Virus record (IMG/VR): IMGVR_UViG_3300036792_000536
Coordinates: 1-34,673 of that record
Length of the DNA: 34,673 bases
Direction: 5' to 3' (one strand)
Origin: a virus
The notes beneath the pieces are model-generated. The model had not been told where the DNA came from and did not search any database. It saw nothing but the letters and a program-made list of their open reading frames with translations. Position numbers and translations under genes: made by a program. This document shows positions 2,543 to 33,922 of this stretch, one piece after another (position 1 is the stretch's first letter; the number at the start of each line of letters is the position of its first letter).

Positions 2543-2818
2543 ATGAAACAGGCTTATATCATCTTGGTTGAAGAGTTGCTGCATCAATACCATAGCAAAG
2601 CAGCCAACCTGCGCGATGCATCTGCTGTTGCTTCAGGCGTTCGCCAGGTATCGCTGAATGATTACGCTTTCCGCTTGAGTGTGGGCCTTACTGGTCTACT
2701 GAGCACCGCCGAGGCTGCTGGGGATGGCGTCGCTGCTGCTGTGATCGATGCGCTGCTGCTGCGTTGTAACAACGGCGACATTCCACTACCAGCATCGCAA
2801 CCGAAGTTTTCAGCGTAG
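2543..2818 (+). CDS. Small early phage protein (91 aa), function unknown
   Basis: The start at ATG 2543 is supported by AAGGGA 9 bases upstream; the longer in-frame version would overlap the previous gene deeply. The protein is alanine- and leucine-rich and predicted helical (LLHQYHSKAANLRDASAVAS, LSVGLTGLLSTAEAAGDG), without a clear membrane span. It is the last gene before a 283-bp structured gap. No family is recognised. Confidence 0.65.
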   Translation: MKQAYIILVEELLHQYHSKAANLRDASAVASGVRQVSLNDYAFRLSVGLTGLLSTAEAAGDGVAAAVIDALLLRCNNGDIPLPASQPKFSA

Positions 2819-2836
2819 CCGGGCAAGAACCCCGGC
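2818..2836 (+). other. GC-rich hairpin after the 91-aa gene
   Basis: GCCGGG (2818-2823) and CCCGGC (2831-2836) form a 6-bp stem with a 7-base loop, starting inside the stop codon of the preceding gene. No U-run follows, so it is not a standard terminator. The same stem sequence recurs at 2969-2991, flanking the large stem-loop between them. Confidence 0.5.
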
Positions 2837-2906
2837 CCTATCTGAGAGCGCACCCTCCCATTTACGTGTGGGGGATTGGCGTCTCGGGGTGTGCTCCCAG
2901 ATAGGG
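2836..2906 (+). ncRNA. Large stem-loop, possible structured RNA element
   Basis: A 20-base arm (2836-2855) and its partner (2887-2906) pair at 19 of 20 positions, counting one G-U, with a single A-C mismatch. They enclose a 31-base loop that can itself form a short CCC/GGG hairpin. Two of the imperfections are confined to the middle of the helix. The arm begins CCCTATCTG and ends ACCC. No ribosome binding site plus open frame explains the stretch. As RNA this would be a very stable 71-nt structure inside the early transcript. It may act as an attenuator, a processed small RNA or a stability element. It does not end in a U-tract. Confidence 0.5.
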
Positions 2907-2968
2907 CTTTAAATAATCCTGTCTGCGCCCTTTCAAAAGTGGGCTGCGTTATACGGGGTAAATCCATG

Positions 2969-2991
2969 GCCGGGCATGGTTAAAACCCGGC
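2969..2991 (+). other. Second GCCGGG/CCCGGC hairpin
   Basis: GCCGGG (2969-2974) and CCCGGC (2986-2991) form a 6-bp stem with an 11-base loop containing TTAAAA, followed by ATTTATTCC. The stem is identical to that at 2818-2836. It may be a weak terminator, a protein-binding hairpin, or part of one folded RNA together with the large stem-loop. The remaining bases up to 3101 are AT-rich and show no gene. No convincing promoter was found there. Confidence 0.4.
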
Positions 2992-3101
2992 ATTTATTCC
3001 AGGTGTTACTTGCGAGTGGCATCTGAAATAAATAGCAGAAATTAAAAATAATGGTGTCACTTGTGCACCGGGCTTCGCTCATCCTGAATTCAGGAGGTTA
3101 T

Positions 3102-3299
3102 ATGACCCACACAGTCGAAAATAACGAGTTAGTAAAAATGCTGACAGACGCGCGATGCTCCGCGCGTTTGCAGTTGCTCGAACTGCTGGATAACAAGCTG
3201 GAGCGCCTGAAGGCAGATGGTGCCAATGCTGACCAAATCATCTTAACGTTGAAACGTTGGATCTCTGTTCGTCAACCTGACGGTGGAACAGTGAAATGA
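3102..3299 (+). CDS. Small early phage protein (65 aa), function unknown
   Basis: A 65-residue, helix-rich protein starting at ATG 3102 behind a perfect AGGAGG. The sequence reads as one long amphipathic helix (LVKMLTDARCSARLQLLELL, then NKLERLKADG) followed by a second helix (DQIILTLKRWI), suggesting a small coiled-coil dimer. It restarts translation after the structured gap and overlaps the next gene by four bases. The family is not recognised. Confidence 0.7.
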   Translation: MTHTVENNELVKMLTDARCSARLQLLELLDNKLERLKADGANADQIILTLKRWISVRQPDGGTVK

Positions 3300-6089: not shown

Positions 6090-6373
6090 ACACTGAAGAA
6101 CTGAAACAGCATATCGACGAAAGCGGTGATTCTGCATACGGGGTACTGCTTGACGCTATCCCACAGGCTAGCCGTAGATTCGAACGCCTGACCCGCGGTT
6201 TGTATGATCTGATACAAGACGTCCGCAAAGAGTTCCCGGATGCTTGTTATTACAGTGCAAACGGCACAGTTAACCTTCTGCTAACTGAATCACACGACAG
6301 GAAGGGGCGCACTCAACAGTTCGGTATCGCGCTTGTCGCCCTCAGGTTGGATATCGGCGGGGGTGATTGGTGA
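6086..6373 (+). CDS. Small early phage protein (95 aa), function unknown
   Basis: A 95-residue protein overlapping the methylase stop by ATGA and the next gene by one base. It is acidic at the N-terminus (MNTEELKQHIDESGDSAYGV), then helical, and ends in beta-type sequence (VNLLLTESHD, GIALVALRLDIGGG). The fold could be a small alpha/beta scaffold, but I do not recognise it. Its tight placement between a methylase and a PP-loop enzyme indicates a shared transcript rather than a shared function. Confidence 0.7.
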   Translation: MNTEELKQHIDESGDSAYGVLLDAIPQASRRFERLTRGLYDLIQDVRKEFPDACYYSANGTVNLLLTESHDRKGRTQQFGIALVALRLDIGGGDW

Positions 6374-7416
6374 TGCCATCGAGCGCTATCTCCTACCCAA
6401 CCGGAACAGCTCATATCGATGATCGCATCTTTGCGGAGGATGCCGTCAACGTGATCAGCATTTCCGGGGGGAAAGACAGCCTGGCGCAGTGGCTGCTGGC
6501 GCTTGATGCTGGCGTGCGGGTTATTCCTGCATTTGCTGATACCGGGCACGAACACCCGTTAACAATGGAATATTTGGATTATCTGGAATCCAAGTTAGGG
6601 CCAGTCCGTCGAGTTAAAGCCGATTTTACCGCGCGTATTGAGGGGAAGCGCCAGTTTATTGCTGAGCACTGGCCCGTGTCGCTGGTTGCAGAGTGTGGAT
6701 TAACCGAGCAGGAGGCGCAAAAGACCGTTGCTTTAGCACTTGAAACCCTTCACCCAACCGGTGTGCCATTTCTTGATCTCTGTATGTGGAAGGGCCGGTT
6801 TCCATCAACAATGGCCCGGTTTTGTACATTCGAACTCAAGCACATTCCAATTCGCGATCAACTGGTAATGCCTCTGCTGGATGAGAATGACGAAGTGATC
6901 AGTTGGCAAGGAGTACGGGCAGAGGAATCACCACAGCGCGCTGGCTTACCTATGTGGGAAACGGACGCGGATAAAACCCCAGGGCTAAATATTTACCGGC
7001 CAATTCTGGATTGGAAACATGCCGACGTTTTTGCCATCGCCAAACACCACGGTATAAAACCAAATCCGCTCTATACACAAGGCTGTAGCCGCGTTGGCTG
7101 CATGCCATGCATTCATGCCCGTAAGTCGGAGCTTGCCGAGATTTTCACCCGTTGGCCGGATGAGATCGCCCGCGTTTCTCGTTGGGAAAAACTGGTTGCT
7201 GCCTGTTCTCGGCGTCAGAACAGCACCTTCTTTCCTTCCACTCAGGATCCGAAAAAGGCAGAGCGCCGGATCGAATGTATCACTGTTGAATCACATGGCA
7301 TTGAAACCTATCGCGATTGGGCGCTAACCACCAGAGGGGGGCAGCAATTCGATTTACTGGCCGCAATGAACGATCACACCGCTTGCAGCAGCATTTATGC
7401 GGGGGTGTGTGAATGA
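6373..7416 (+). CDS. PAPS reductase / DndC-like PP-loop protein
   Basis: A PP-loop ATP-pyrophosphatase fold protein, 347 residues from ATG 6373 (TGATG overlap with the upstream gene). The nucleotide-binding motif is ISISGGKDSLAQW (SGGKDS 31-36). The family signature VRAEESPQR lies at 181-189. Four cysteines, C151 (RFCTFELK) and C238, C243, C246 (QGCSRVGCMPC), look suited to an iron-sulfur cluster, as in DndC and APS-reductase relatives. Phages carry such proteins widely under the label phosphoadenosine phosphosulfate reductase family, and their true reaction is unknown. Sulfur transfer to DNA, RNA or a small molecule is possible. DndC works with DndA/D/E, none of which is visible here. The next gene overlaps by four bases, so the two products may act together. 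Confidence 0.88.
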   Translation: MPSSAISYPTGTAHIDDRIFAEDAVNVISISGGKDSLAQWLLALDAGVRVIPAFADTGHEHPLTMEYLDYLESKLGPVRRVKADFTARIEGKRQFIAEHWPVSLVAECGLTEQEAQKTVALALETLHPTGVPFLDLCMWKGRFPSTMARFCTFELKHIPIRDQLVMPLLDENDEVISWQGVRAEESPQRAGLPMWETDADKTPGLNIYRPILDWKHADVFAIAKHHGIKPNPLYTQGCSRVGCMPCIHARKSELAEIFTRWPDEIARVSRWEKLVAACSRRQNSTFFPSTQDPKKAERRIECITVESHGIETYRDWALTTRGGQQFDLLAAMNDHTACSSIYAGVCE

Positions 7417-7820
7417 TGCGCAAAACACAGGCCGCTCTTACCATTGCAACCCTCTATAGCCGCTACGAGCACATCCAGGATTTTCACGTGCTGACGCGCC
7501 TCAATCGAGAGCGTGCCTTCAACTGGGGGGGCCGTCGTTGCGGGAAAACCTACGCAGCTCGCCAACGGGAACTGATCCGCGCAGCGTTCCAGCTTTCTGC
7601 GGGCGCGACGCTAAAACTTCTTCCTCTCAGTAGAAAGCTACCGCTTATAGAGCGGATAGTCGGTTATGACCCAGGCGACGGCGAAGAAAAGGCCGCTGAG
7701 TGCGTATTTCTGCGCGATCCTATCACTGGTGTATTCACGCTGCTGTCAGCAAATACGGTTGAACGTAGGCCCGACTCCCAACCATGGATTAGCTTTGATG
7801 GGTGGGTTTTTCGGGAATGA
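7413..7820 (+). CDS. Small P-loop protein, function unknown
   Basis: A 135-residue protein sandwiched with ATGA overlaps between the PP-loop protein and replication gene A. It carries a textbook Walker A sequence, WGGRRCGKTYAA (GxxxxGKT, about residues 39-46), reminiscent of the GGRRxGKT loops of phage packaging or DNA-mimic ATPases. It is far too short for a terminase. A hydrophobic-D Walker B candidate appears only weakly near the end (PWISFDGW). It may be a minimal nucleotide-binding protein or a truncated ATPase. Frame integrity and coupled spacing argue that it is a real gene and not debris. Confidence 0.68.
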   Translation: MMRKTQAALTIATLYSRYEHIQDFHVLTRLNRERAFNWGGRRCGKTYAARQRELIRAAFQLSAGATLKLLPLSRKLPLIERIVGYDPGDGEEKAAECVFLRDPITGVFTLLSANTVERRPDSQPWISFDGWVFRE

Positions 7821-10300
7821 GTAAAGAGGCCCGCGGACGTTACGCACCATCACCGCCGTTGCCATACCCAGGTAGCGGCGTTGTGCTGTCTGACTATCCA
7901 CATGACTGGAACAAGCCTAAAGCCGCGATATTTGTAGATAAAACTCCTGCTGTTGATCTCGTTGAACTGGGTCAAGAGCAAGAGTTTTTAGGCTGGGTGA
8001 GCATTACCCTCAAACCATATCCGCGCTTCATCCGTCAGCGCCTGACCTCGCGTATTGACAGCATTCACACCATGAAGGGACGGCATATTGCCCGCTTGGC
8101 TTTGCGGGATATTATTCGCAGAGATCTGCCTTTTATTGACAAGGTGACTGACCAGCACGGCATCCAACAAGACTTTAGCGAAACGTCTGACATTCGGGGT
8201 ATGGCTTTCGAACACCTTGACCCGCTGTATCACACCTTTGCCAATTTAAACGCCTTGATCGAGCGGTTTAACCGCCTGCCTGACTTCACACGCGAAGATA
8301 TCGATCTGTTGGCCAAAGATATCGCCATCTACATGACGGGTGTGCTCTGTGAAGTAAACGAAAACAGCGCGCAGTTGAGTGACAGGAAGGCAGCACTTTG
8401 CCTGTATCAGGAAGCGGCCAACCTTGCCCAGGTGTTAAATATCCTGCCCCCGCATTGGGGGAAGTTCTGCCGGGGCAGGCTGTGGATTGATGAAGCGGCA
8501 ACAGCTATCAGCAAGATGAAGGATGAGCGGTATTGGGGGCGCAATTTACGCAAGTATGCTACCCGCTGGCGTGAGCATCTGCATATTGCTTTCGGGGATG
8601 TTAAGCGAGGCGCTGCACCGTATTGCAGCAAGCATCATGTTGATGAGTGGGACGCCCGCCGCAAGCGCAGCCGCGCGATCATGAGTCGGCTTGAGCTTGA
8701 GGACGAGGAGACCAAAGAGCGGATTTCTCTCATCGATCAGATTGATAAGAGCATATCGAATCCGGCGTTGCGTCGTGTTGAACTCATGACCCGCATCGGT
8801 GGCTTTGAAAAAGTTGCCACTGATACCGGCTTTGTCGGCAATTTCTTCACGTTGACCGCACCGTCGAAATACCATGCTTACACGATGTTCGGGCATCGCA
8901 ATCCCAAATGGAACGGCGCCAGCCCGCGTAAAACTCAGCAGTACCTTAACCGTGTATGGCAGCAAATTCGTGCGGAGTTGGCCCGCCGGGAGATCGAAGT
9001 GTTCGGGCTGCGCGTAGCTGAGTCTCACCATGACGGAACACCTCACTGGCACGGCCTACTGTTTGCTGCACCAGAGCATACTGCTGAGTTGCTTGAAGTC
9101 ATGACAGAATACGCTACCCGTGAGAATGCCGAAGAATTACGCAGCGAGCATGGGACACAGCCGCGTTTCAAAATGAAGCCGATCGATGAGAGCATCGGCA
9201 GTGCCACCGGCTATGTGGTGAAGTACATTTCAAAGAATATCGACGGCTATGCGCTCGACGGTGAAACCGACGATGAAAGCGGTAAACCTCTGAAGGAAAC
9301 CGCCAAGCACGCAACTGCCTGGGCATCCTGCTGGGGCATTCGTCAATTCCAGTTTTTAGGCGGCGCCCCGGTTTCTGTCTGGCGCGAGCTTCGTCGCATG
9401 CGCAATCAGGCGCTGGCCGACAAAATCAATCCGTTGTTTGCTCAACTGCATCATGCTGCTGACGGCGGTGACTGGCGCGAATATACCCATTTGCAGGGGG
9501 GCGCGATTGTTTCCCGTAAAGATTTGCCGCTCCGGGTCTGGTACCAGAAAGAAGGCCAGCCAAACAGTTACGGCGAATACGCTCCCATTATCAAAGGGCT
9601 CTACATGCCAGCGGTGGATATACCGCCGGTGGTCACCCGTCTTCACAGTTATCGGATTGTGAAGATGAAAGCAGAATCTGCCAACGACGCAGGGCAGGCA
9701 GTTGACCTTCCGGGCGCGTCTGCGCCCCCTAGGACTCGTGTCATTAACTGTACTGAGAACAAAAATTGTACAGATATGGGTGGGTTATCTCCGCCAGATA
9801 CTGAGCCGGAACAGCTTGAAATCGGCCAAAAATCGGCAAGCAGGCGAAAACAGCTTGCCGATAGCCTTCGAAACCACAAACCGGAGCGGAAAAAGTCCCC
9901 AGCCGAAGAGTTTGAGGCGCTGGCGCACGCCATTACTACAGGCGAATGCACTGAGCAGGAACGCCTGCGGGCAGAAAGTTACATGCGTGCTGCACAGTCG
10001 CTCAGGCAAATGGACGAAAAGGTCACTCCATTGGTCGCCAGCGTTGCAGAACAGGTGAAGCGCTGGGCGAAAATCCGAAAAGTCACCGTGAGCGAGCACC
10101 AGGCTATTCAGTTGGCTATGGGGAAAGAAGTCACCGTGCTGGATACGGTTTATCAGGCAAATCTGGTTACCGGTGAACTGATCGTTGCCGGCATGGATAA
10201 GCAGTGGCGGAAATCCATTGCAAAACACAAGGCTACAGACTTGGTATCGCGCTGGCAGTCTCTGGTGAAAGGCCGGGTAAATTCCAGCACCGCCGCATAA
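7817..10300 (+). CDS. A: Rolling-circle replication initiator, P2 gpA type
   Basis: Phage replication endonuclease that nicks the origin and stays linked to the 5' end, starting rolling-circle replication. It is 827 residues, somewhat longer than P2 gpA (about 760). The HUH metal motif is PHWHGLLF (H410, H412). The two-tyrosine motif is YVVKYISKN (Y466 and Y470), with the same four-residue spacing as the paired catalytic tyrosines of P2 gpA. The linker around 630-665 is low in conservation-type residues and overlaps the candidate origin. ATG 7817 overlaps the previous stop (ATGA). A needs the host Rep helicase in P2. The final gene of the early operon, it is followed by a 158-bp gap before the accessory genes. 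Confidence 0.95.
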   Translation: MSKEARGRYAPSPPLPYPGSGVVLSDYPHDWNKPKAAIFVDKTPAVDLVELGQEQEFLGWVSITLKPYPRFIRQRLTSRIDSIHTMKGRHIARLALRDIIRRDLPFIDKVTDQHGIQQDFSETSDIRGMAFEHLDPLYHTFANLNALIERFNRLPDFTREDIDLLAKDIAIYMTGVLCEVNENSAQLSDRKAALCLYQEAANLAQVLNILPPHWGKFCRGRLWIDEAATAISKMKDERYWGRNLRKYATRWREHLHIAFGDVKRGAAPYCSKHHVDEWDARRKRSRAIMSRLELEDEETKERISLIDQIDKSISNPALRRVELMTRIGGFEKVATDTGFVGNFFTLTAPSKYHAYTMFGHRNPKWNGASPRKTQQYLNRVWQQIRAELARREIEVFGLRVAESHHDGTPHWHGLLFAAPEHTAELLEVMTEYATRENAEELRSEHGTQPRFKMKPIDESIGSATGYVVKYISKNIDGYALDGETDDESGKPLKETAKHATAWASCWGIRQFQFLGGAPVSVWRELRRMRNQALADKINPLFAQLHHAADGGDWREYTHLQGGAIVSRKDLPLRVWYQKEGQPNSYGEYAPIIKGLYMPAVDIPPVVTRLHSYRIVKMKAESANDAGQAVDLPGASAPPRTRVINCTENKNCTDMGGLSPPDTEPEQLEIGQKSASRRKQLADSLRNHKPERKKSPAEEFEALAHAITTGECTEQERLRAESYMRAAQSLRQMDEKVTPLVASVAEQVKRWAKIRKVTVSEHQAIQLAMGKEVTVLDTVYQANLVTGELIVAGMDKQWRKSIAKHKATDLVSRWQSLVKGRVNSSTAA
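9712..9756 (+). other. ori: Candidate replication origin inside gene A
   Basis: P2 ori lies inside its A gene. Here a perfect GGGCGC-GTCT-GCGCCC hairpin (9712-9727) is followed by the palindrome CCTAGG (9728-9733) and ACTCGTGTCATTAA. This loosely resembles the P2 nick region as I recall it (GCGCC, then GGAGTCCTGTCA). It falls in a proline-, serine- and threonine-rich linker of gpA after the catalytic domain, where the protein is free to vary. The exact nick is not determinable by eye. Confidence 0.38.
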
Positions 10301-23807: not shown

Positions 23808-24327
23808 TAGTTTGTTGCCGCCGCATGCGACACCATTAATGCAGCGCATCGAGCTGGCGTGCGAGAAGGCGACGACGTTGCCTGTGCCATTACGAACCTT
23901 GTGGGATCCAGATTCTTGTCCGCCGTCTTTGCTGCCTTATCTGGCCTGGGCGATATCGGTTGATCGTTGGGATGCGGGTTGGAGCACTGAAGCAAAACGC
24001 GATGCTATTCGGCAGGCCTACTTTATTCACCGGCACAAGGGAACCGTCGCGGCACTGCGTCGGGCGGTTGAGCCGTTGGGCTATCTGATACAAGTGATCG
24101 AATGGTGGCAAGAGGGTGAACAGCCGGGCACTTTTCGTGCTGATATTGGTGTGCATGAGGAGGGGATTACGGAAGAGATGTATCAGGAGTTGGAACGGGT
24201 GATTGCCGATGCAAAACCAGTCAGCCGGCACCTGATAGGGCTGACGTTGATCCAGGACGTGCCCGGAACTTTATTTATCGGCGCCGCGGCTATTGACGGT
24301 GACGTCATTACGGTTTACCCCGGATAA
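23800..24327 (+). CDS. I: Baseplate protein, gpI
   Basis: A tail protein of P2 gpI type, 175 residues, joining baseplate wedge to fibre. Key text: LLPPHATPLMQRIELACEKA, RTLWDPDSCPPSLLPYLAWA, ISVDRWDAGWSTEAKRDAIR and HRHKGTVAALRRAVEPLGY. It overlaps J by 8 bp and ends 9 bp before the fibre gene. Confidence 0.95.
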   Translation: MRNSLLPPHATPLMQRIELACEKATTLPVPLRTLWDPDSCPPSLLPYLAWAISVDRWDAGWSTEAKRDAIRQAYFIHRHKGTVAALRRAVEPLGYLIQVIEWWQEGEQPGTFRADIGVHEEGITEEMYQELERVIADAKPVSRHLIGLTLIQDVPGTLFIGAAAIDGDVITVYPG

Positions 24328-24336
24328 GGAATGAAC

Positions 24337-26142
24337 ATGAGTAAATATAAGGCGTTAGTAACTACCGCCGGCGCCGCAAAAATTGCAGCGGCATCAGCAG
24401 GTGGCACGCAACTGAAAATTACACATATGGCTGTTGGTGACGGCAATGGCGCATTACCGGTACCGAACCCAGAGCAGGTCAGTCTGGTTAATGAGAAATA
24501 CCGTGCTGCGTTGAACTCGCTGACGGTCGATAAATCTATTGATAACCATATTATTGCCGAGTTTATTGTCCCGGCCGATATTGGCGGATTTTGGTTGCGG
24601 GAAATGGGGTTGTTTGATGAGGGCGGAACGCTGATTGCAGTCAGCAATATGGCCGAAAGCTACAAGCCTGAATTAGCTGAAGGCAGCGGTCGTACTCAAA
24701 CTTTGCGTATGGTGCTGATTGTAAGCAGTACAGAAGCCATTCAAATCGTTGTCAGCGGAGATACCGTGCTGGCAACTCGGGATTTTGTCGAAGATGCAAT
24801 CAACGATCATGAGAAAACTCGCAATCATCCGGATGCAAGTACGACAGCGAAGGGGATGGTGCAACTGAGTAGCGGCACAACCAGCGCAGATGAAACCAAG
24901 GCGGCTACACCAAAGGCGGTTAAAGAGGTTAGTGATGCCAGTGCCAAAAAATCAGCCAACCTGTCAGACCTGAGTGATAAGGCTGCTGCTCGTAAAAATT
25001 TGGAGCTGGGTACGGCAGCGACAAAAAATGTGGGTATCGAAGGCGGCAATGTCATGACGGTTGGCGCATTTGGCCTGGGTGGCGGCTCAAACCATAAAGC
25101 GGATGCCTATAACAACGCCGGTGAAATCTACAGAGTCAATAATACCTCTTCAAACGCCCCAACAACGGGTGTTGCCGGTGTGGTTAGCTTGCCCTGTGAT
25201 GGAGGCCCTTCGTCGGCATATGTTGCTGTCAGTAATGCTGGTGCTGCATGGGTAGGCAGTTCAAATACTCCGGCGAATGGCGTCCGATGGAATCGCGTTT
25301 ATACCACTGCATATAAACCCACTGCTGCTGATGTTGATGCTGTTGCGAAGACCGGTGATCGAATGAGTGGCCCACTGGGCTCAACGTATTCTGATACGTA
25401 TCGCATTGCTGCCGGTCGATATGGCACTTTCTGGCGTAATGACGGCAACAACCTGTATTTAATGCTCACAAATGCTGATGACCAGTGGGGAGGATTTAAC
25501 GACCTAAGGCCGCTAACTGTTAACACTGGCTCGGGGTCGGTGACGATAGGCACCCAATTATCATTCGACAACCCGAATTTTATCAAGAAAACAGGGATAA
25601 GCAGCTATCAGAGCAGTGGTGTTAACCATAACCAAACAAACGGCTTCATTCTTCAAGGCGCTGGCGACCAATCCGCCGAGTCTCATTTTCTTGAAACCGT
25701 GGGGGTGCGTACGGCCCTGCGCTGGCGGATTCGCGGCGGTGGCCTGGATGCCTGGCCTGAGTTTCGAAATGATGGTTCTTTATATCTGGCGGGCAATTGG
25801 CCGGTTATACAAACCAGCTCTGGGGCAACCTTCCACCCTGACGCGAATATTGAAGGCACATTGTGGGGTGGCTATCTCAGTAACTGGTTAAACAGGGAAC
25901 TTACCGCACGCGACAACAATATTAATACCCGCGCCACGTGGGATTACGTAAACCAAAACTGCATTCAAAACGTCAGGTATACCGCCGAAACGCAACACGG
26001 TGCTACAGGTATTTATACATATCACGAAAACACCGTATTAACAGGATTTAACAACTGGGATGGTGATTATTCCGCTGAAGAGTTGTTCTGGAGCTACATT
26101 CAGATTTACAAAAACGGTCAATGGCTCACGATAGGACGTTAA
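24337..26142 (+). CDS. H: Tail fibre protein, gpH
   Basis: The receptor-binding fibre, 601 residues (P2 H 669). The N-terminal 150 residues are the conserved P2-type fibre attachment domain (MSKYKALVTTAGAAKIAAAS, LKITHMAVGDGNG, FWLREMGLFDEGG). A helical/repeat zone follows (SANLSDLSDKAAARKNLELG), then a variable C-terminus of about 340 residues that should decide host range (YRIAAGRYGTFWRNDGNNLY, LETVGVRTALRWRIRGGGLD). ATG 24337 is chosen over ATG 24331 because AAGGA then lies at proper spacing. Base composition in the distal part is more AT-rich than in the baseplate genes, as usual for exchanged fibre tips. Confidence 0.94.
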   Translation: MSKYKALVTTAGAAKIAAASAGGTQLKITHMAVGDGNGALPVPNPEQVSLVNEKYRAALNSLTVDKSIDNHIIAEFIVPADIGGFWLREMGLFDEGGTLIAVSNMAESYKPELAEGSGRTQTLRMVLIVSSTEAIQIVVSGDTVLATRDFVEDAINDHEKTRNHPDASTTAKGMVQLSSGTTSADETKAATPKAVKEVSDASAKKSANLSDLSDKAAARKNLELGTAATKNVGIEGGNVMTVGAFGLGGGSNHKADAYNNAGEIYRVNNTSSNAPTTGVAGVVSLPCDGGPSSAYVAVSNAGAAWVGSSNTPANGVRWNRVYTTAYKPTAADVDAVAKTGDRMSGPLGSTYSDTYRIAAGRYGTFWRNDGNNLYLMLTNADDQWGGFNDLRPLTVNTGSGSVTIGTQLSFDNPNFIKKTGISSYQSSGVNHNQTNGFILQGAGDQSAESHFLETVGVRTALRWRIRGGGLDAWPEFRNDGSLYLAGNWPVIQTSSGATFHPDANIEGTLWGGYLSNWLNRELTARDNNINTRATWDYVNQNCIQNVRYTAETQHGATGIYTYHENTVLTGFNNWDGDYSAEELFWSYIQIYKNGQWLTIGR

Positions 26143-26145
26143 TCA

Positions 26146-26688
26146 ATGAAAATATTTAAGAATTTCACGTTAGGCGAACCAAAAACTGCCGAGCATCTTA
26201 AATTGCGTAATCAACACAACACGATGTTTCTCTACGATGAGAACGGTACGGAATGGTATGGCTGTCAGAAGGATTTTTCACCAGACACGATAAAATTTGC
26301 ATTCGATGACAAAGGCATTATCCGCAGCATTGCAGATAACAATGATGTCTCGACCCTGTGGCCAGTGGGCTTTAGCGTTGCCGAAGTGCTGGATACTACG
26401 GCTAACCGCCGCGCGGATATATCTGGTGCATGGGTATTTGACGGTGAAAGCATCGTCAAACGCGTTTACACTGCCGATGAGTTACATGCTCAGGCTGAAT
26501 CGCGAAAAGAAAAGCTACTCGCTATCGCCAACCAAAAAACGCAGGCATGGCAAACGCAATTGATGCTGGGGATGATTAGTGAAAAGGATAAAAAATCATT
26601 GATCGCGTGGATGGAGTTTGTGCAGGACGTTCAAGCCATTGATGTAAGGCTCGGAGATAAAATCATATGGCCTGAGTTACCGGCCTAG
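26146..26688 (+). CDS. G: Tail fibre assembly protein, gpG
   Basis: A 180-residue fibre chaperone of the Caudovirales tail-fibre assembly family, starting 3 bp after H. The N-terminus (MKIFKNFTLGEPKTAEHLKL) is P2-like. The C-terminal helical region (AESRKEKLLAIANQKTQAWQ, TQLMLGMISEKDKKSLIAWM) is the conserved assembly domain. It is normally matched to the fibre tip, so H and G exchange together. Last gene of the rightward late operon. Confidence 0.94.
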   Translation: MKIFKNFTLGEPKTAEHLKLRNQHNTMFLYDENGTEWYGCQKDFSPDTIKFAFDDKGIIRSIADNNDVSTLWPVGFSVAEVLDTTANRRADISGAWVFDGESIVKRVYTADELHAQAESRKEKLLAIANQKTQAWQTQLMLGMISEKDKKSLIAWMEFVQDVQAIDVRLGDKIIWPELPA

Positions 26689-26695
26689 GATAGTT

Positions 26696-26716
26696 CGGAT
26701 GCACTGTATGCATCCG
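26696..26716. terminator. Hairpin between convergent G and U
   Basis: CGGATGCA (26696-26703) and TGCATCCG (26709-26716) form a perfect 8-bp stem with a CTGTA loop, 8 bp after G and 93 bp beyond the stop of the minus-strand U gene. It is followed by AGTTATTT, a weak T-rich tail. It probably terminates the long rightward late transcript and perhaps also the leftward tail operon. The rest of the 121-bp gap holds no gene; P2 has its Z/fun cargo site here. Confidence 0.6.
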
Positions 26717-26809
26717 AGTTATTTAATGTTACTGCCGGGCAAACATCGTCAGTACCGTCTGTGTTGGCCATCGTCCTGCAGTACAGTCAAAAATGGCTGT
26801 GCTCGATAC

Positions 26810-27247
26810 CTAGCCGGGGATCATGCCCAGCAGATCATCCGCAGTAATATCCGCTAATCCTTCGCGAACATCTTCACTGACCTTTTTCAGCGACAGCGTG
26901 AACTCAATTTTCTTGGCTTTGCCATCGGAGAAAAACTCGGTGCGGGTTTCGGTGATGCTGTCGATCACAAACATGCCGTAAATGATGCCAGTCCCTTCAA
27001 TCAGCGGCCAGGGGCGGGCGGTATACGCCATGGTGCGTAGTACCTCCAGCGAGACATCACCGCCGGTGACTTCCGGGTAAAGTGAACCGCTCAGTGTGAT
27101 CGCATCTTCGCCGGCGCCAATGTATTGCCACTTCGCGGATTTGCCTATGCGCTCGTTTTTGACGTGTCGAAATCCAGAGGTGCGGGCCAATGACTGATAG
27201 GGGGCCGTGTTCAGCGTAAACACGAACATGCCATAAACCATCATCAT
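26810..27247 (-). CDS. U: Tail terminator / assembly protein, gpU
   Basis: A P2 gpU-type tail protein, 145 residues (P2 U 159). Collinear blocks: MMVYGMFVFTLNTAPYQSLA, RIGKSAKWQYIGAGEDAITL, GSLYPEVTGGDVSLEVLRTM, WPLIEGTGIIYGMFVIDSIT and KKIEFTLSLKKVSED. Three ATG codons in a row give a slightly uncertain start; the first at 27247 follows AAGGA. It is the last gene of the minus-strand tail operon, four bases after T. Confidence 0.95.
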   Translation of the reverse strand: MMMVYGMFVFTLNTAPYQSLARTSGFRHVKNERIGKSAKWQYIGAGEDAITLSGSLYPEVTGGDVSLEVLRTMAYTARPWPLIEGTGIIYGMFVIDSITETRTEFFSDGKAKKIEFTLSLKKVSEDVREGLADITADDLLGMIPG

Positions 27248-27251
27248 GTTA

Positions 27252-30200
27252 TTATTCCTTATCGCTCAGGCGGGAACGTCGGCGCGTATCGTTTTCGCGC
27301 ATCAGCTCCCGTATCTTGTCTTTCACCAGCGCGCCAAGCGCCCGCTGATCCCCCATATCCACCCCATGGAAATGCACCTCAAACGTGTAATTATCGCGGC
27401 TGACAGCCTGGCGGCCAGTGCTCAGAGAACGGGTAGGTGCCTCTGGGATGGGGATCCCTGCCAGTGCAGGCTGTATTGATGACGGTAGCACGCTATCCGC
27501 CAGGCTCACCGCTGAGCGTTTCAGGCGTGCCAACAGGGATTCACGTTGCACCTGCATGCGCGGCTCCTGGTAAGCGCCATCGATGGCCGTCACTGGCGGG
27601 CGATTTTTGAAGACGATATCACCCAGTTTTTTGACATCGGCCGCAGATGTTCCCGCAGCGGATGCTCCACCGCCACCGGCCCCCGTAGACTTTTTGGCCT
27701 TGCGGTCTGCTGCGCTGCCGTAGACTGCCGACCCGTAAACCTGATCTACTGTTTCGCCGGTCTTTTTGACCGCCTTCTGCTTGGTATCCTCGGCCTCTTT
27801 GGTTTTTTGTCCGGCTTTGGTGATGCTGTTAACATCTTGCAGCAGCAAATTGGCCCGGCCTGCCAGTTTCTTCGCGTCGTCGGGGCTCATGGCTGCGACT
27901 GCCTGCTGAGCGGCTTCGGCAGCACTCGGTATTGCGCCCAGTTTTTCCAGCAACCAGCCGATCCCTTTGGCAATTTGGGCAATCGGCCACAGCAGGCCAG
28001 AAATCGCGGCGCCGACAACCTTACCGAAGGTTTCACCAGCGGAGGTGCATTTTTCCAGCGACTCTTTTGACGACTCCACCGGAGCAAGCAGGCTTTTAAA
28101 CCAGTTCCACACCTTGCTGATAGCGCTGCCAATACCGTCAAATATCGGTGCCAGTGGTGCAAAGACTGACTGGAACGCCAGTTTTATCGGAGCTAACCCT
28201 TCAATCAGGCCGGTGAAAAAACCGGAGAAGAAGGCTTTGATCGGCTCCCAAAACTTCCAGATCAGCAGGCCAGCGCCAACAATGGCCATAACCAACAAGC
28301 CGATAGGACTCAGCAGCAGCGAAAAGCCGCCACCCAACATCGTCAGACCGGTACGGACAACGTTGAACAGCATCCCAAAGCCGCCCGTTGCCAGCTTCCG
28401 CAGGCCATTGCCCAGTACTGCCAATGCAGCGCCTGGTTGAGTAAATGCCATGAATAAACCACGGCCGGCGGTAGCCGCCCCGCGTGACAACCCCATAAGC
28501 ATGTTGTTGCCGAGTAGCGCCACCCGGCTGCGCAAGTTGCCCAGCGCAGTCATACCGCCGCGGAACACTCCCGGCCAATCCTTGATGCTACGTCCAACGC
28601 CAGACAGCGAAGGGATCAGCCGGCCGAGTGCCCCGGTCAACCCTTTGGTTGAGGGGATCAGCGCGCCCATACCACGTCCGCCGGTCAGCATAAACAAACT
28701 CAAGCGCATAAGGGCGAAGGGGACAATGAGCGCGGCAGCGGCCAGTGCCAGCGCGCCGAGTGCGGTGACCATCACGCCAATCACCAGGCCGGCCGTGATC
28801 AGTCCCGAGGTCAATTGAGGGTGGGCTTTCATCCATTTGCCGACGCTGGCGATCAGATTGGTAAAACCCTGAGTCAGCCGGCGTAATGGGGAATCGACAC
28901 TTTCTTCCATCTGGATGCCCAGATCTTCCCAAGCCGAAACCAGTTGTTTGACATCGCCTTTCAGGTTATCGATTTTCACTTTGGCGACTTTATCGGCTTC
29001 GCCTTTGGCGTGCTCCAGGGCGTCATTCAGTTCATCATAGCGGCCATTCATTGCTGCTTTGAGCACGGCGCCCATGCCGACCATGGCCTCTTCACCAAAA
29101 ATGTCTTTTTTGATGCGCGCTTGGCTAGCCTGGTCAAACTTTTGAATATTTTTAGCAACGTCTTTCAGGATGTCCGGCATAGCGCGAAGGCGGCCCTGCG
29201 CATCATTCACTTTGACGCCGAGAGCGCCCAGCGCATCCTGTCCCGCTTTGGCCGGCGCAACCAAGCGTGTCAGACCTGCACGCAGTGCGGTACCAGCCAT
29301 ACTGCCGCGGATGCCGTTATCGGCCATGGTACCTGCCATCGCCGCCATGCTTTCCAGACTGATCCCCAGGTCGGCAGCAACTGGCCCGGCATAGGTCATG
29401 GTTTCACCCAACATGCGCAGGTCGGTATTGCTACGGGTAAATGCGGCGGTCAATACGTCAGACACGCGATCCATCTGATCGGCCTGCATACCAAATTGCG
29501 TCAGAACGTTGGAGCCGATATCTGAGGCTTCGCCCAGTCCCATATCACCGGCTAAACCCATATTCAGCACACCAGGTAGAGCCTGCTTGATGGATTCAGG
29601 GGTGAAACCGGCCATTGCCAGGAATTTTTGCCCGGATGCTGCATCCGTGGCGGTGTAGGCGGTTGAGGCACCAAGCGAGCGGGCTTGCTCGCGGAGCATT
29701 TTCAAACGGGGATCGCTTTTATCTATGCGCGTCAGTGCCTGCACGCCGGACATGCCTTCGTCAAATTCGAAGCCAGGCGTCATGATGCGCGATGCGCCAT
29801 ACAATGCGCCAGCGCCGCCGGCAGTTGCCATCGCTCCACCGGCCGCCAGTTTGCCGCGCATTTCCTTGGCGCGGGCAACGTTGGCCTGCATGCGAGTTAC
29901 CGCACTGAGGCGGCGCTGCTGTTCAGCCAACTGGCGGTTGTAGCCTTCGGTACGGCGGGTTATTTGAGCTGTGGCATTGTCGCTCTGGCGCACTGAAACG
30001 CCATGGCGGTACATCTGCGCGGTTACAGCATTGAGCTTTTGCTTCTCTTTATCGAGGGAGCGACCCAGGCGATCACGTTCGAGGCGGGAGGCCGCAAGTG
30101 ATTTTCGCTGATCGTCTGTCTGCTGCTTCAGTGGGCCGAACTCGGCGCGAAGGCTTTTAGCCTTGGCTTTGGCCGCCTCATAGGCAGCCGCATTTTTGTT

Positions 30201-30380
30201 GATGGAGGCGTTAAGGCGATCGAAGGTTTTCGCCTGCCCATCAAGGTTCTTGATGCTGCCCTGGGTGGCTTTGATCTGAGAGGCCAGTCCGGCCGCACTG
30301 CGTTGAGCAGCACTGACCGGCCCGGAGAGTTTATTAGCGGCGCTGAGCGCCACTCGAATATTGAGGTTGCGGTCTGTCAT
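27252..30380 (-). CDS. T: Tape measure protein, gpT
   Basis: The tail length ruler, 1042 residues (P2 T 815; a longer tail is predicted). The N-terminal 200 residues are a long coiled coil (INKNAAAYEAAKAKAKSLRA, SAANKLSGPVSAAQRSAAGL). The conserved TP901-type core (about 210-460) includes SLGASTAYTATDAASGQKFL, GMQADQMDRVSDVLTAAFTR and MAGTMADNGIRGSMAGTALR. Hydrophobic membrane-type helices occur at about 525-560 (LITAGLVIGVMVTALGALAL) and 680-710 (PIGLLVMAIVGAGLLIWKFW), expected for infection-time insertion into the host membrane. Its start overlaps the E' stop by four bases. Confidence 0.96.
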   Translation of the reverse strand: MTDRNLNIRVALSAANKLSGPVSAAQRSAAGLASQIKATQGSIKNLDGQAKTFDRLNASINKNAAAYEAAKAKAKSLRAEFGPLKQQTDDQRKSLAASRLERDRLGRSLDKEKQKLNAVTAQMYRHGVSVRQSDNATAQITRRTEGYNRQLAEQQRRLSAVTRMQANVARAKEMRGKLAAGGAMATAGGAGALYGASRIMTPGFEFDEGMSGVQALTRIDKSDPRLKMLREQARSLGASTAYTATDAASGQKFLAMAGFTPESIKQALPGVLNMGLAGDMGLGEASDIGSNVLTQFGMQADQMDRVSDVLTAAFTRSNTDLRMLGETMTYAGPVAADLGISLESMAAMAGTMADNGIRGSMAGTALRAGLTRLVAPAKAGQDALGALGVKVNDAQGRLRAMPDILKDVAKNIQKFDQASQARIKKDIFGEEAMVGMGAVLKAAMNGRYDELNDALEHAKGEADKVAKVKIDNLKGDVKQLVSAWEDLGIQMEESVDSPLRRLTQGFTNLIASVGKWMKAHPQLTSGLITAGLVIGVMVTALGALALAAAALIVPFALMRLSLFMLTGGRGMGALIPSTKGLTGALGRLIPSLSGVGRSIKDWPGVFRGGMTALGNLRSRVALLGNNMLMGLSRGAATAGRGLFMAFTQPGAALAVLGNGLRKLATGGFGMLFNVVRTGLTMLGGGFSLLLSPIGLLVMAIVGAGLLIWKFWEPIKAFFSGFFTGLIEGLAPIKLAFQSVFAPLAPIFDGIGSAISKVWNWFKSLLAPVESSKESLEKCTSAGETFGKVVGAAISGLLWPIAQIAKGIGWLLEKLGAIPSAAEAAQQAVAAMSPDDAKKLAGRANLLLQDVNSITKAGQKTKEAEDTKQKAVKKTGETVDQVYGSAVYGSAADRKAKKSTGAGGGGASAAGTSAADVKKLGDIVFKNRPPVTAIDGAYQEPRMQVQRESLLARLKRSAVSLADSVLPSSIQPALAGIPIPEAPTRSLSTGRQAVSRDNYTFEVHFHGVDMGDQRALGALVKDKIRELMRENDTRRRSRLSDKE

Positions 30381-30828
30381 GATTCACTTCCGTTACGGAC
30401 AGCCGCACGTTCACGCCATTTCAGCAACTCAGGCACTGACATGGCGTCGTACTCCGACGGTGCCCAATGAAAGACGGTGGCTATGTCGGCGATGATCTCA
30501 TCTGTTTCTACGCTTGGGCACCGGATGACTCGTCGTCCAAGGGGATCGCTTCCTGTTCCGAGCTCGGCGCCAAAAAATCTGCCACACCGGCCGCCAGCAA
30601 TGAGAAGTCCTGAATGTTCATGGTCGACAGTTCGACTTCGGTCAGGCGTGGGGAGGTGACGCGCGGTAATAACGTGATCAGGGAATTCACATCGCTGGTC
30701 ATGACGTCGTAAAGTTTCAGGCCGCGCAGTGCTCCAACTTGCTTCATGGTGTCGGTGATGGTGACTTCAGTGATCTCTTCACCGCTGTTACGTTTGATGG
30801 CCGCGGAAAGTGTAATTAATTTAGGCAT
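30377..30828 (-). CDS. E': Tail assembly chaperone E + E' by -1 frameshift
   Basis: In P2 the chaperone E is also made as a longer E+E' by a -1 frameshift. Here E (30508-30828) contains the slip sequence T TTT TTG at 30577-30571. The -1 frame is then open without a stop through VETDEIIADIATVFHWAP and SVPELLKWRERAAVRNG, to a TGA at 30379-30377 that overlaps the T start. The fusion would be 150 residues (P2 E+E' 142). The HWAPSEYDAMSVPELLKWRE text matches the P2 E' class. Coordinates do not represent one continuous frame. Confidence 0.9.
30508..30828 (-). CDS. E: Tail assembly protein E
   Basis: A tail chaperone of 106 residues made without frameshift. P2-type text: SAAIKRNSGEEITEVTITDT, VGALRGLKLYDVMTSDVNSL and LLPRVTSPRLTEVELSTMNI. 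It lies 78 bp after FII and before T on the minus strand. It coats the tape measure during tube growth by family analogy with lambda gpG/gpGT. It ends in a short acidic tail (PLDDESSGAQA) that is replaced in E+E'. Confidence 0.93.
   Translation of the reverse strand: MPKLITLSAAIKRNSGEEITEVTITDTMKQVGALRGLKLYDVMTSDVNSLITLLPRVTSPRLTEVELSTMNIQDFSLLAAGVADFLAPSSEQEAIPLDDESSGAQA
30571..30577 (-). promoter_or_regulatory. Programmed -1 frameshift slip site
   Basis: On the minus strand the heptamer reads T TTT TTG in the E frame (GAT TTT TTG). It is the same heptamer reported for the P2 E/E' frameshift. The -1 frame opens into E' with no stop before 30377. The downstream GC-rich sequence (GGCGCCGAGCTCGG) could fold as a stimulator. 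Frequency cannot be told from sequence. Confidence 0.85.
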
Positions 30829-30906
30829 GGTGTCAGACTCCGATTGTGCCTGGCGATAGTCTGCCAGGCATAACGTGATAGGTTGCTAGCTTATTAAGCT
30901 AATAAT

Positions 30907-31419
30907 TTAGTGACCGATATTCTTGCGGTGCTGCTCCAGCAGATCTTTGCCGTCGACCTTCCAGATCAGGTTGAGCAGGTCAACCTCAAAGATTTCAGCG
31001 TTATCGATCGTGACCTTGCAGTAGGCATTTTTCAGCGTGTACTTGTGCTGGGTATTATCTCCGGCCTTGGCAGACCCCCAATCCAGTTCGGTGAACCGTC
31101 CGCGGGTTTGAATTTCACAGGCCACTGTCTGGCCGGTAGCATCGTCGTAATATGACCCCGCGAAGCGCAGTTGCAGACTGTCGAGCGTACCGCCGAAGGT
31201 CTTTAGCAAAGAAGACTCCAGTCCACCCATAGTGACCTCCATGTCGAGCGCGCCGCCGTCCAACCCCATGAGAACGGCAACGGATCCTGGCATTCCTGCA
31301 CCCTGGTAATCCTCGGTTTTTAATGTGAGCTTGGGCACGGTAGTTTCTTCAACCTGGCCGAGATACGTTTGTCCGTTAATAAACACGTCAAACATAAAGA
31401 GTTTTTTAGGCATCCCCAT
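30907..31419 (-). CDS. FII: Tail tube protein, gpFII
   Basis: The inner tail tube protein, 170 residues (P2 FII 172). Blocks in P2 order: MPKKLFMFDVFINGQTYLGQ, VPKLTLKTEDYQGAGMPGSV, MTMGGLESSL-like text, QLRFAGSYYDDATGQTVACE and the ending LLEQHRKNIGH, almost the P2 C-terminus. Starts at 31419 behind AAGGGG. Lies 13 bp after FI. Confidence 0.97.
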   Translation of the reverse strand: MGMPKKLFMFDVFINGQTYLGQVEETTVPKLTLKTEDYQGAGMPGSVAVLMGLDGGALDMEVTMGGLESSLLKTFGGTLDSLQLRFAGSYYDDATGQTVACEIQTRGRFTELDWGSAKAGDNTQHKYTLKNAYCKVTIDNAEIFEVDLLNLIWKVDGKDLLEQHRKNIGH

Positions 31420-31432
31420 GACTTATTACCCC

Positions 31433-32644
31433 TTATCCCAGCTGGTTGAAGACGGCGAAATACTCATCGGTGAAGGTCTGAGTCAGTTCCAGATTCTCCA
31501 GCGGCGGTACCGGCGTGTATTTGTAGCGGATGTGCGCTTTACCGTCGCGCAGGTTTTCTTTCGGGTTGTCCGCCGGGTCATACCAGCAGTCGAACCCCAG
31601 AAGCCGACCGGCAGTGACTAACTGCTTACCTTTGCGGTTGATGCCGTCCACGATGTCTTTAACAAGCGACGGTGTGAGCGTTTTATCAATGTAGCCAAAA
31701 TGGGCTTCTACGATCATGTCAGCCAGGATCTGCGCTGTACGGGTGTAGACCTCGAAGAAGTAGGTTTCAGCATCGCAGGTGCGGTTGCCCCAAAAGCGGA
31801 ATCCGTCACGCTTGATCAGCGTGGTGACGTTATGGCTGTTGAGATCATCAGCATCGGTATCTTTACCCTGGAGTGACCACCAGATATCGGCAGAAATCCC
31901 CAGCACACCATCCAGTGGCACGTTAGACAGCGACTTATGCCAGCCTTGCTCATCGTCAATTTTGGCACGTAACCCCAGTGCATAGGCTGTTGCCGGCACG
32001 GTTTCATTTTCCCCTGACTGGGTGTTATAGGCGATGAAGTCGGGGTAAATAATCATCAGCTCGCGCTGGCTGAATGTCTCGCGGTAGGTTTTTACCTCGG
32101 CGATGGTTTTCTGCCCGTGTGCGCCGATGTAGGCAAAAGCCCGGAGCTTTTCAGCAAACACGCCAATCTGGGCCGCTACGGCCTCGGAGTCCAGTCCCGG
32201 CGCCCCCAGCAAGCGTGGATGAGCACCCGTATGAGTTTCGGCGGTCAGCAACGCGTACAGGCCGGTATAGCGCCCTTCAGGGCTTACACCCCCAATGACT
32301 AACTGGTCTTGCGTCTGTGCGGCAGCGTCGCCGCCTGGTGCTGACTCTTTCGCTTCGGCAACCCGCACGACAACCACTTTCGGGCTGCACTGGTCGGAAA
32401 TTGCTTTCAGCGTGCTGTATAGCGTGCCGGTTTTCCCTGCTTTACCCAGTACGCTATTAACGCGGGTAATCAGGGTTGGCGTGTCGAGAGGAAACGTAGT
32501 GGCGTCTGCATCATCCGCAGTACATACCACGCCAATCACGGAAGTATCAATATCGCGGATAAGCGTACCGAGTTCCGTGGTTTCTGTGACCGACGCGCCA
32601 TGATGAAAAGCGGAAGCTGTTGCCATTGATAACAATGCAAACAT
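31433..32644 (-). CDS. FI: Tail sheath protein, gpFI
   Basis: The contractile sheath subunit, 403 residues (P2 FI 396). The start at 32644 is chosen because GAGGT lies seven bases upstream on the minus strand; an in-frame ATG at 32677 has no good site. Family text: HHGASVTETTELGTLIRDID, TSVIGVVCTADDADATTFPL, TYRETFSQRELMIIYPDFIA, LGLRAKIDDEQGWHKSLSNV, DGFRFWGNRTCDAETYFFEV and YKYTPVPPLENLELTQTFTD. It is the first gene of the minus-strand tail operon, divergent from D, whereas in P2 FI and D are in one operon. Confidence 0.97.
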   Translation of the reverse strand: MFALLSMATASAFHHGASVTETTELGTLIRDIDTSVIGVVCTADDADATTFPLDTPTLITRVNSVLGKAGKTGTLYSTLKAISDQCSPKVVVVRVAEAKESAPGGDAAAQTQDQLVIGGVSPEGRYTGLYALLTAETHTGAHPRLLGAPGLDSEAVAAQIGVFAEKLRAFAYIGAHGQKTIAEVKTYRETFSQRELMIIYPDFIAYNTQSGENETVPATAYALGLRAKIDDEQGWHKSLSNVPLDGVLGISADIWWSLQGKDTDADDLNSHNVTTLIKRDGFRFWGNRTCDAETYFFEVYTRTAQILADMIVEAHFGYIDKTLTPSLVKDIVDGINRKGKQLVTAGRLLGFDCWYDPADNPKENLRDGKAHIRYKYTPVPPLENLELTQTFTDEYFAVFNQLG

Positions 32645-32800
32645 GACTTTTACCTCATGGGTTAAACATGCTGCCAATATGGTTCAGCCTTCGATAAAAA
32701 GCATTCCATAGGCCTTGTCGCAGGCGTCCCAGAAGTTCGGCGGGTTGTCTACGCACGCGCACGCGGCAATCCTGTTAAAAACAGCGGCTAAGGTGCAGGC
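32645..32800. promoter_or_regulatory. Divergent FI / D late promoter region
   Basis: This 156-bp gap must serve two opposite late transcripts. Two imperfect Ogr-like boxes are present. TTGT-N12-AGAA at 32715-32734 is one mismatch from consensus; its centre predicts a rightward start near 32780, just before D. TTGT-N12-ACGC at 32745-32764 has two mismatches; it predicts a leftward start near 32700, with TATGGA at the -10 position for FI. The boxes are weaker than the P/O box, so confidence is moderate to low. Confidence 0.42.
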
Positions 32801-33922
32801 ATGGAATTTATCGACAACCTGGTCAGTGACGACTACGTCAAGCGTCCGGGCTTTGATTTACTTATCGGGGGTGAGACTGTCACTGAAGTGAATCGCCGGC
32901 TGATTTCGTTGACGGTCACGGACAATCGGGGATTTGAAGCGGACACTGTGGAGCTGGTGATCGATGATGCCGACGGGAAGGTAGATTTACCCCGCCGCGG
33001 TGTTGATGTGTCCGTGTCAATCGGCTGGGAAGGGGAAGCTTTGGTGCATAAGGGCATCTTCACCGTTGACGAAGTCAGCCACAGCGGCCCGCCGGATCAG
33101 TTGACAGTGACCGCGCGCAGTGCTGATTTTCGTGAGGATTTCAACGTCAAACGTGAATACAGTTGGCACGATGTGAGTGTGAGGGATGTCGTCAGCGCAA
33201 TCGCCGGTCGTTACAACCTGAAACCGGGTGTCAGCAGCAGCCTGAAGGATGTGGAGATCGACCACGCAGACCAGACCAGTGAAAGTGATATCAGCTTCTT
33301 GACCCGCATGGCGGAGCTGCTGGGCGCAATTGCCACCATCAAGAACGGCATGCTGCTGTTCATTGTGCCAGGGCAAAGCGTGAGCCGAAGCGGAAAACCA
33401 TTACCCGGCATCACCATCACGCGCGCCAGTGGTGACAGGCACAGTTTCCGCGTGGCGGATCGGGATGCTTATACCGGCGTGCAGGCCAACTGGCTGGATC
33501 TGAATTTTGGTAAAAAACCGGCGACAACCATCAAGCGTCGGCGCAAGGCGGTGAAGCCTAAAACGCCAGCATCCAGTTCTAAAGACGGTGAATATCTGGA
33601 AGGGGCCGAAGGGAATGTATTCGTGATGCGCCAGACATTTAAAACCGAGCGGGCAGCCCGTAGAGCAGCCGCCGCAAAATGGCTGAAGCTTCAACGCGGT
33701 GCCGCCGAGTTTGGGATCACGCTGGCGCGAGGCCGTGCCGATATTTACCCTGAGCTGCATGCTAAAGTGACGGGGTTTAAGTCGGTGATCGATAATGCTG
33801 ATTGGGTGATTGCCAGGGTAGTGCATACTGTGGGGGAGCAAGGCTACCAGACCGCGCTTGAGCTGGAGGTCAAAGTCAAAGGCACGGAAATGGAGTCTGC
33901 CGACAAAACAGCCGACGAGTGA
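32801..33922 (+). CDS. D: Late tail protein D (baseplate hub)
   Basis: P2 gpD-type hub protein, 373 residues (P2 D 387), comparable with T4 gp27 in the baseplate hub. Family text: RRLISLTVTDNRGFEADTVE, DADGKVDLPRRGVDVSVSIG, SDISFLTRMAELLGAIATIK and a C-terminal domain with VFVMRQTFKTERAARRAAAA. ATG 32801 follows AAGGT. It is separated from FI-U, which read on the other strand, and probably cotranscribed with ogr. Confidence 0.95.
   Translation: MEFIDNLVSDDYVKRPGFDLLIGGETVTEVNRRLISLTVTDNRGFEADTVELVIDDADGKVDLPRRGVDVSVSIGWEGEALVHKGIFTVDEVSHSGPPDQLTVTARSADFREDFNVKREYSWHDVSVRDVVSAIAGRYNLKPGVSSSLKDVEIDHADQTSESDISFLTRMAELLGAIATIKNGMLLFIVPGQSVSRSGKPLPGITITRASGDRHSFRVADRDAYTGVQANWLDLNFGKKPATTIKRRRKAVKPKTPASSSKDGEYLEGAEGNVFVMRQTFKTERAARRAAAAKWLKLQRGAAEFGITLARGRADIYPELHAKVTGFKSVIDNADWVIARVVHTVGEQGYQTALELEVKVKGTEMESADKTADE

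Follow-up and report, generated by a model that had tools for sequence, protein, structure and literature searches.

Temperate phages keep their accessory genes at fixed slots. How can an operon tolerate cargo of any kind, on either strand, at such a place? The early operon of a P2-like virus raises this question. A first-pass annotation had noticed a very stable 71-nt stem-loop there, in a gap between two early genes, and had suggested a phage small RNA, an attenuator or an antisense-type regulator. We describe the element, its relatives and the exchange of modules beside it, and present this conserved seam RNA as a candidate answer.

A three-way junction between two early genes

The window, meaning the whole stretch of 34,673 nucleotides that was analysed (IMG/VR record IMGVR_UViG_3300036792_000536), is an entire virus contig with a P2-like layout. 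Its − strand carries an integrase and a C-type repressor, after which a Cox-like gene and small early genes follow on the + strand. We take the large ORF at 7802-10300 to encode the replication A protein; ORFs resembling portal, terminase and tail genes, assigned by eye, lie farther downstream. The ORF ahead of the replication gene (6367-7416) looks, again by eye, like PAPS-reductase or DndC-type proteins. The gap and its surroundings contain the following features:

2543..2818, + strand, upstream early gene of the phrog_2549 family (PHROGs 1.9e-12), the left anchor in P2-like relatives
2818..2836, + strand, H1, a GCCGGG-loop-CCCGGC hairpin adjoining the 5' side of H2 with zero spacer
2837..2905, + strand, H2, the main element, a three-way junction
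2907..3101, no strand assigned, accessory-gene slot, cargo-free here; in relatives it is filled by several unrelated modules, which reach about 1 kb and can lie on either strand
2969..2991, + strand, H3, a second GCCGGG-loop-CCCGGC hairpin, retained at the distal edge of the slot in many relatives
2992..3033, + strand, H4, a hairpin of 17-18 bp with covarying pairs, directly 3' of H3 with no gap
3102..3299, + strand, downstream early gene, phrog_12723-like, the right anchor of the slot

The first base of H1 is also the last base of the stop codon of the upstream gene. The gap consists of two units of one design, each a small GC hairpin followed by a long hairpin (H1-H2 and H3-H4); H1 and H3, which share the GCCGGG/CCCGGC stem, are the two flanking hairpins with identical stems that had been claimed. 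In H4, six pairs were changed on both sides with pairing kept over eight relatives, and this hairpin has its own variable mismatch adjoining a CAG/CTG step.

As the annotation had stated, the two 20-base arms of H2 (2836-2855 with 2887-2906) form 19 pairs out of 20, one of them a G-U. The sole unpaired position is an A2845-C2897 mismatch within the basal stem. The claimed high stability was confirmed by folding: the 71-nt element reached −43.4 kcal/mol (z −6.4), an energy matched by none of 200 dinucleotide shuffles (mean −24.6, s.d. 3.0), and its 181-nt neighbourhood gave a z of −3.9. The annotated location and stem thus stood, but the plain loop did not. The long loop is itself folded into two apical hairpins (2857-2861 with 2868-2872, and 2873-2876 with 2881-2884), and the resulting three-way junction is the shape that relatives keep.

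The stem of H2 is not followed by a U-tract. Its tail reads GCUUUAAAU in the window and UAAUGAAA or similar in relatives, and H2 is absent from the predicted intrinsic terminators. Consensus scans revealed no promoter-like site upstream within the operon, no terminator directly after the hairpin and no convincing + strand intrinsic terminator in the P2-like slot. Since a nearby promoter, a U-tract and a terminator of its own are all missing, H2 is read as a cis element of the early mRNA and not as the separate small RNA gene first suggested. The other two readings fared no better: for an attenuator, the + strand offered no terminator that came with an alternative structure, and for an antisense regulator, no target was found. 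A scan of the whole window with 4227 Rfam models gave nothing at the gathering threshold, with chance matches far below it.

Pairing is conserved, with the + strand favoured

A check for compensatory changes in relatives had been proposed, and such changes are present. In 29 distinct P2-like sequences, pairing was kept in 96.4% of cells, compared with 34-57% when partners were slid, and six pairs were changed on both sides, compared with 2.8 in shuffles; both controls account for relatedness only partially. Across all hairpin types, 12 of the 20 stem positions showed at least two Watson-Crick types in an ungapped count anchored on invariant bases. Hairpin length ranged from 68 to 70 nt, and this variation, together with the covariation of pairs, led us to reject protein coding across the hairpin.

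Stem wobbles on the + strand comprised 60 G-U as against 38 A-C, and both apical helices close with a near-invariant U-G. This pattern favours the + strand, in agreement with the way the early operon is oriented. The interpretation we prefer is an RNA structure under selection on that strand, with folded single-stranded + DNA being compatible with the wobble argument taken alone. P2-like and lambdoid types share a constant weak spot at stem position 9: its A stands opposite C in 22 of 40 sequences and opposite U in 16 of 40. Sequence is conserved in the stem core, CUGARAGYGCA / UGYGCUYYCAG, and in the apical part, GUGGGnGAYUGGCGUC.

Stability alone would be sufficient for a passive stabiliser or barrier that protects mRNA ends or halts Rho or ribosomes and has no dedicated partner. 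We give this reading very little probability, as it does not account for a stem core and apical sequences that stay constant from one phage family to another.

H2 occupies one site in P2-like relatives

Three queries were run against IMG/VR: a pattern for 17 bases of the arm, the protein of the upstream gene and a more permissive pattern for the hairpin. H2 was found at the same site in at least 36 contigs, and all 36 contigs encoding a relative of the upstream gene have the hairpin 3' of that gene, a few with one extra small ORF between; the contigs overlap in origin, so these locus counts do not equal independent events. Almost every P2-like relative also has H1 in this position. In a P2-type phage of Yersinia, a less elaborate hairpin shares the CTGAAAG arm and likewise follows a GCCGGG/CCCGGC hairpin.

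An apparent inverted orientation at four loci (L004, L010, L013 and L018) was rejected because the symmetric arm pattern had merely matched the opposite strand. We also rejected five Burkholderiales matches to the DNA pattern (L055-L059), which form no hairpin and apparently represent one shared coding sequence.

Eight of 30 Serratia genomes had a hairpin match; two of the eight, G415 and G400, had weaker and more distant ones. The order and family genome samples yielded only one further genome, with a weak match in a lambdoid prophage, and the hairpin is rare outside the Serratia genus sample. No match to the hairpin of the window was obtained in 50,697 phage records, in keeping with its claimed absence from known P2 phages, and none to this same hairpin in 5,426 E. 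coli genomes. The stem-core pattern occurred in none of 394 sampled genomes of the order, and it is therefore not a host repeat.

The hairpin pair marks the seam of an exchangeable module

In the P2-like set, about 260-280 bp separate the hairpin from the next constant gene when the slot is empty, and 465 to about 1,220 bp when it is occupied. Several unrelated modules start about 1-40 bp past the hairpin end, and some of them contain − strand genes with their 3' end about 12 nt away. Pairs of relatives that keep the left side showed left/hairpin/right identities of 92/97/54, 97/96/52, 94/96/48 and 90/90/53%, while in the reverse case, with the right side kept, identities were 54/94/97 and 55/91/97%; the shuffled expectation for flank identity is 54. 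At the level of sequence comparison, these alignments place the H1-H2 pair right at the seam where the constant early genes give way to a swappable accessory module. Even where two E. coli prophages encode the same repressor protein, they diverge by an entire ORF immediately after it. The hairpin offers a sequence marker for locating accessory-gene slots in temperate phages.

Modules that switch exactly at the hairpin, on either side, would fit a DNA-level element, in which a recombinase takes a folded single strand as the entry point for cargo, in the manner of integron attC or REP sequences. G-T wobbles fit single-stranded + DNA too. However, we saw no recombinase gene in the slot of P2-like relatives, there are only one or two copies per genome, the stem core is missing from the order genomes just mentioned, and the hairpin is constant in strand and position. 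Integron attC boxes (RYYYAAC/GTTRRRY) were not present at the ends of the aligned hairpins. The recombinant hairpin of L047 (4291-4360), which joins a 5' arm of the CCTAT type to a 3' arm of the ATGGG type, also speaks against such an element. Its arms pair, including a U-G, except at one C-A step that recurs in its parent type, and ordinary homologous recombination by way of the conserved arms accounts for it. We consider a DNA-level role to have little probability.

Cargo proteins of the slot had no Pfam match and no convincing PADLOC match, and for this reason we refrain from labelling the slot as a defence island. Convergent − strand genes encoding small, two-helix-membrane-like proteins were noted 3' of the hairpin in L022, L029, L047 and L050 and at 2960-3445 of L106. 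Two of these two-helix-like proteins were searched and had no Pfam match.

A wider family in the leaders of lambdoid phages

A search with the stem-core pattern revealed related hairpins with different apical sequences in other phages, and a covariance model trained on the P2-like set alone scored the lambdoid hairpins at 25-38 bits. Carriers include mEp390 and Klebsiella phage Kp4866-6, and two lambdoid subtypes were found in prophages of 7 and 24 of the 5,426 E. coli genomes, in overlapping sets. The stem core, including the A·C position, is common to lambdoid prophages of E. coli, Klebsiella and Serratia; the types in L097, L109, L110, L126 and L151 are placed in the family by the shared stem core alone. 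No description of the hairpin was found in the literature by motif or by topic. It turns out to be a previously undescribed phage RNA structure family, wider than P2-like phages.

Lambdoid copies lie past the repressor gene, in the leader that precedes the leftward early genes. In L128 and L134 the hairpin starts about 10 nt past a promoter-like sequence, and other copies stand flush 3' of an intrinsic terminator. An H1-like GCCGGG..CCGG(C) hairpin again precedes the main hairpin in mEp390, L127, L148 and L150. A tRNA-Arg starts right at the hairpin end in L148 (8232-8308) and L155 (3570-3646). In mEp390 (L153, 5090-5180), the leader-terminator loop CAGTTGTGAA is complementary to TTCACAACTG, the start of the adjoining hairpin, and an alternative pairing of the two is possible.

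We further noticed that a stretch almost identical to the 3' end region of the host small RNA RprA (AUUGCUGUGUGUAGUCUUUGCCC plus terminator), a motif recognised via PMC7311995, adjoins the hairpin in leaders of lambdoid early operons. It is present in an E. coli EC09 prophage (L160, 3621-3758) and also in L097, L098, L148, L153 and L155. The Rfam RprA score of this phage module was 41.5 bits, less than the gathering score of 70, and a phage mimic or sponge of RprA is possible.

The RprA-like module with its terminator, together with constant apical sequences that could act as seeds, might suggest that the hairpin is a discrete trans-acting small RNA or an antisense regulator. This is improbable given the missing operon-internal promoter-like site, terminator and Rfam family, as well as the fixed cis position in P2-like relatives.

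H2 as a candidate processing site of the early mRNA

Bacterial RNase III substrates have stems of about 20 bp, and in enterobacterial transcripts a stem of this length is expected to serve as one. The early mRNA of T7 carries intercistronic hairpins of this kind. H2 is double-stranded over such a length: its stem in the window counts 20 pairs including a single A-C mismatch, and most types have about 20. It lies between operon genes on the same strand (2543-2818 and 3102-3299) or, in lambdoid phages, in a leader. Lambdoid hairpins stand flush with terminators, H1 or a tRNA and near the promoter, and for this reason we read them as punctuation.

We tentatively propose, at somewhat less than even probability, that H2 acts in cis within the polycistronic early message, working as intercistronic punctuation via RNase III-type cutting. 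Host RNase III, or a similar double-strand nuclease, would cut the 20-bp stem. The upstream message would then end in H1 as a protective 3' end, while the downstream message, with any inserted module, would gain a 5' end of its own. Processing at H2 would in this way insulate the neighbouring genes from the cargo. The role of the stem core and of the constant apical bases would be to fix the cutting position or to bind the host factor. We infer this biochemical action from the structure, cis position, shared core and coincidence with the seam, all of which the comparisons above show.

RNase III does not require strong sequence conservation of the stem core or apical bases. Their strong conservation here suggests a more specific binder and argues against a plain RNase III site. 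It is conceivable, although we lean towards doubt, that H2 belongs to a portable family of cis RNAs, which in both phage groups would bind a specific host factor, such as RNA polymerase or an RNA-processing enzyme, through the stem core. If so, P2-like and lambdoid temperate phages would keep their early operons working during module exchange at the element. The H1-H2 unit could also be kept for another cis function, and homologous recombination between conserved functional sites can give rise to a module seam whatever the role of those sites.

A close rival to punctuation, in itself rather unlikely, is factor-independent antitermination like that of HK022 put, in which the nascent two-hairpin RNA would act on RNA polymerase and let it pass antisense cargo or leader terminators. 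The size of about 70-90 nt, the abutting hairpin pair on the + strand and the specific core across phage families in related hosts agree with this, and the copies in L128 and L134 occupy the position of putL. Several prophage leaders hold intrinsic terminators between promoter and first gene. In some P2-like relatives, − strand cargo in mid-operon creates long untranslated antisense stretches that antitermination would ease. However, positions 24000-33000 of HK022 yielded neither a model match nor a shared motif, many lambdoid copies stand just 3' of the nearest terminator and not 5' of it, and the P2-like slot has no convincing + strand terminator to pass. The put RNA, with two stems, bulges and a triplex (PMC9378689), differs from H2 in shape.

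Comparison with known systems

The P4 CI RNA and the P1/P7 C4 RNA are, like H2, small structured RNAs of phage early regions. Rfam scans gave no C4 match, and the hairpin model had no match in the P4 genome. Identity of H2 with HK022 put or with a P4 RNA was rejected, as comparison gave no match.

HK022 putL and putR are likewise abutting stem-loop pairs of about 70 nt in an early transcript, and lambdoid copies of our hairpin can sit right past the early promoter. H2, in contrast, is a long, near-perfect stem with a three-way junction and without detectable sequence relation to put, and it also occurs inside the P2-like operon, far from the operon start. By analogy, a relation to put is possible in behaviour only.

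The RNase III sites between T7 genes and in the lambda N leader are also stems of about 20 bp between co-transcribed early genes or in a leader. Unlike H2, for which cleavage is a prediction, they have no known shared core, three-way junction or association with a slot. Finally, the boundary sequences of lambdoid mosaics resemble H2 in being short conserved sequences where unrelated modules meet, whereas the seam at H2 is a structured RNA with compensatory changes and is found in P2-like phages as well.
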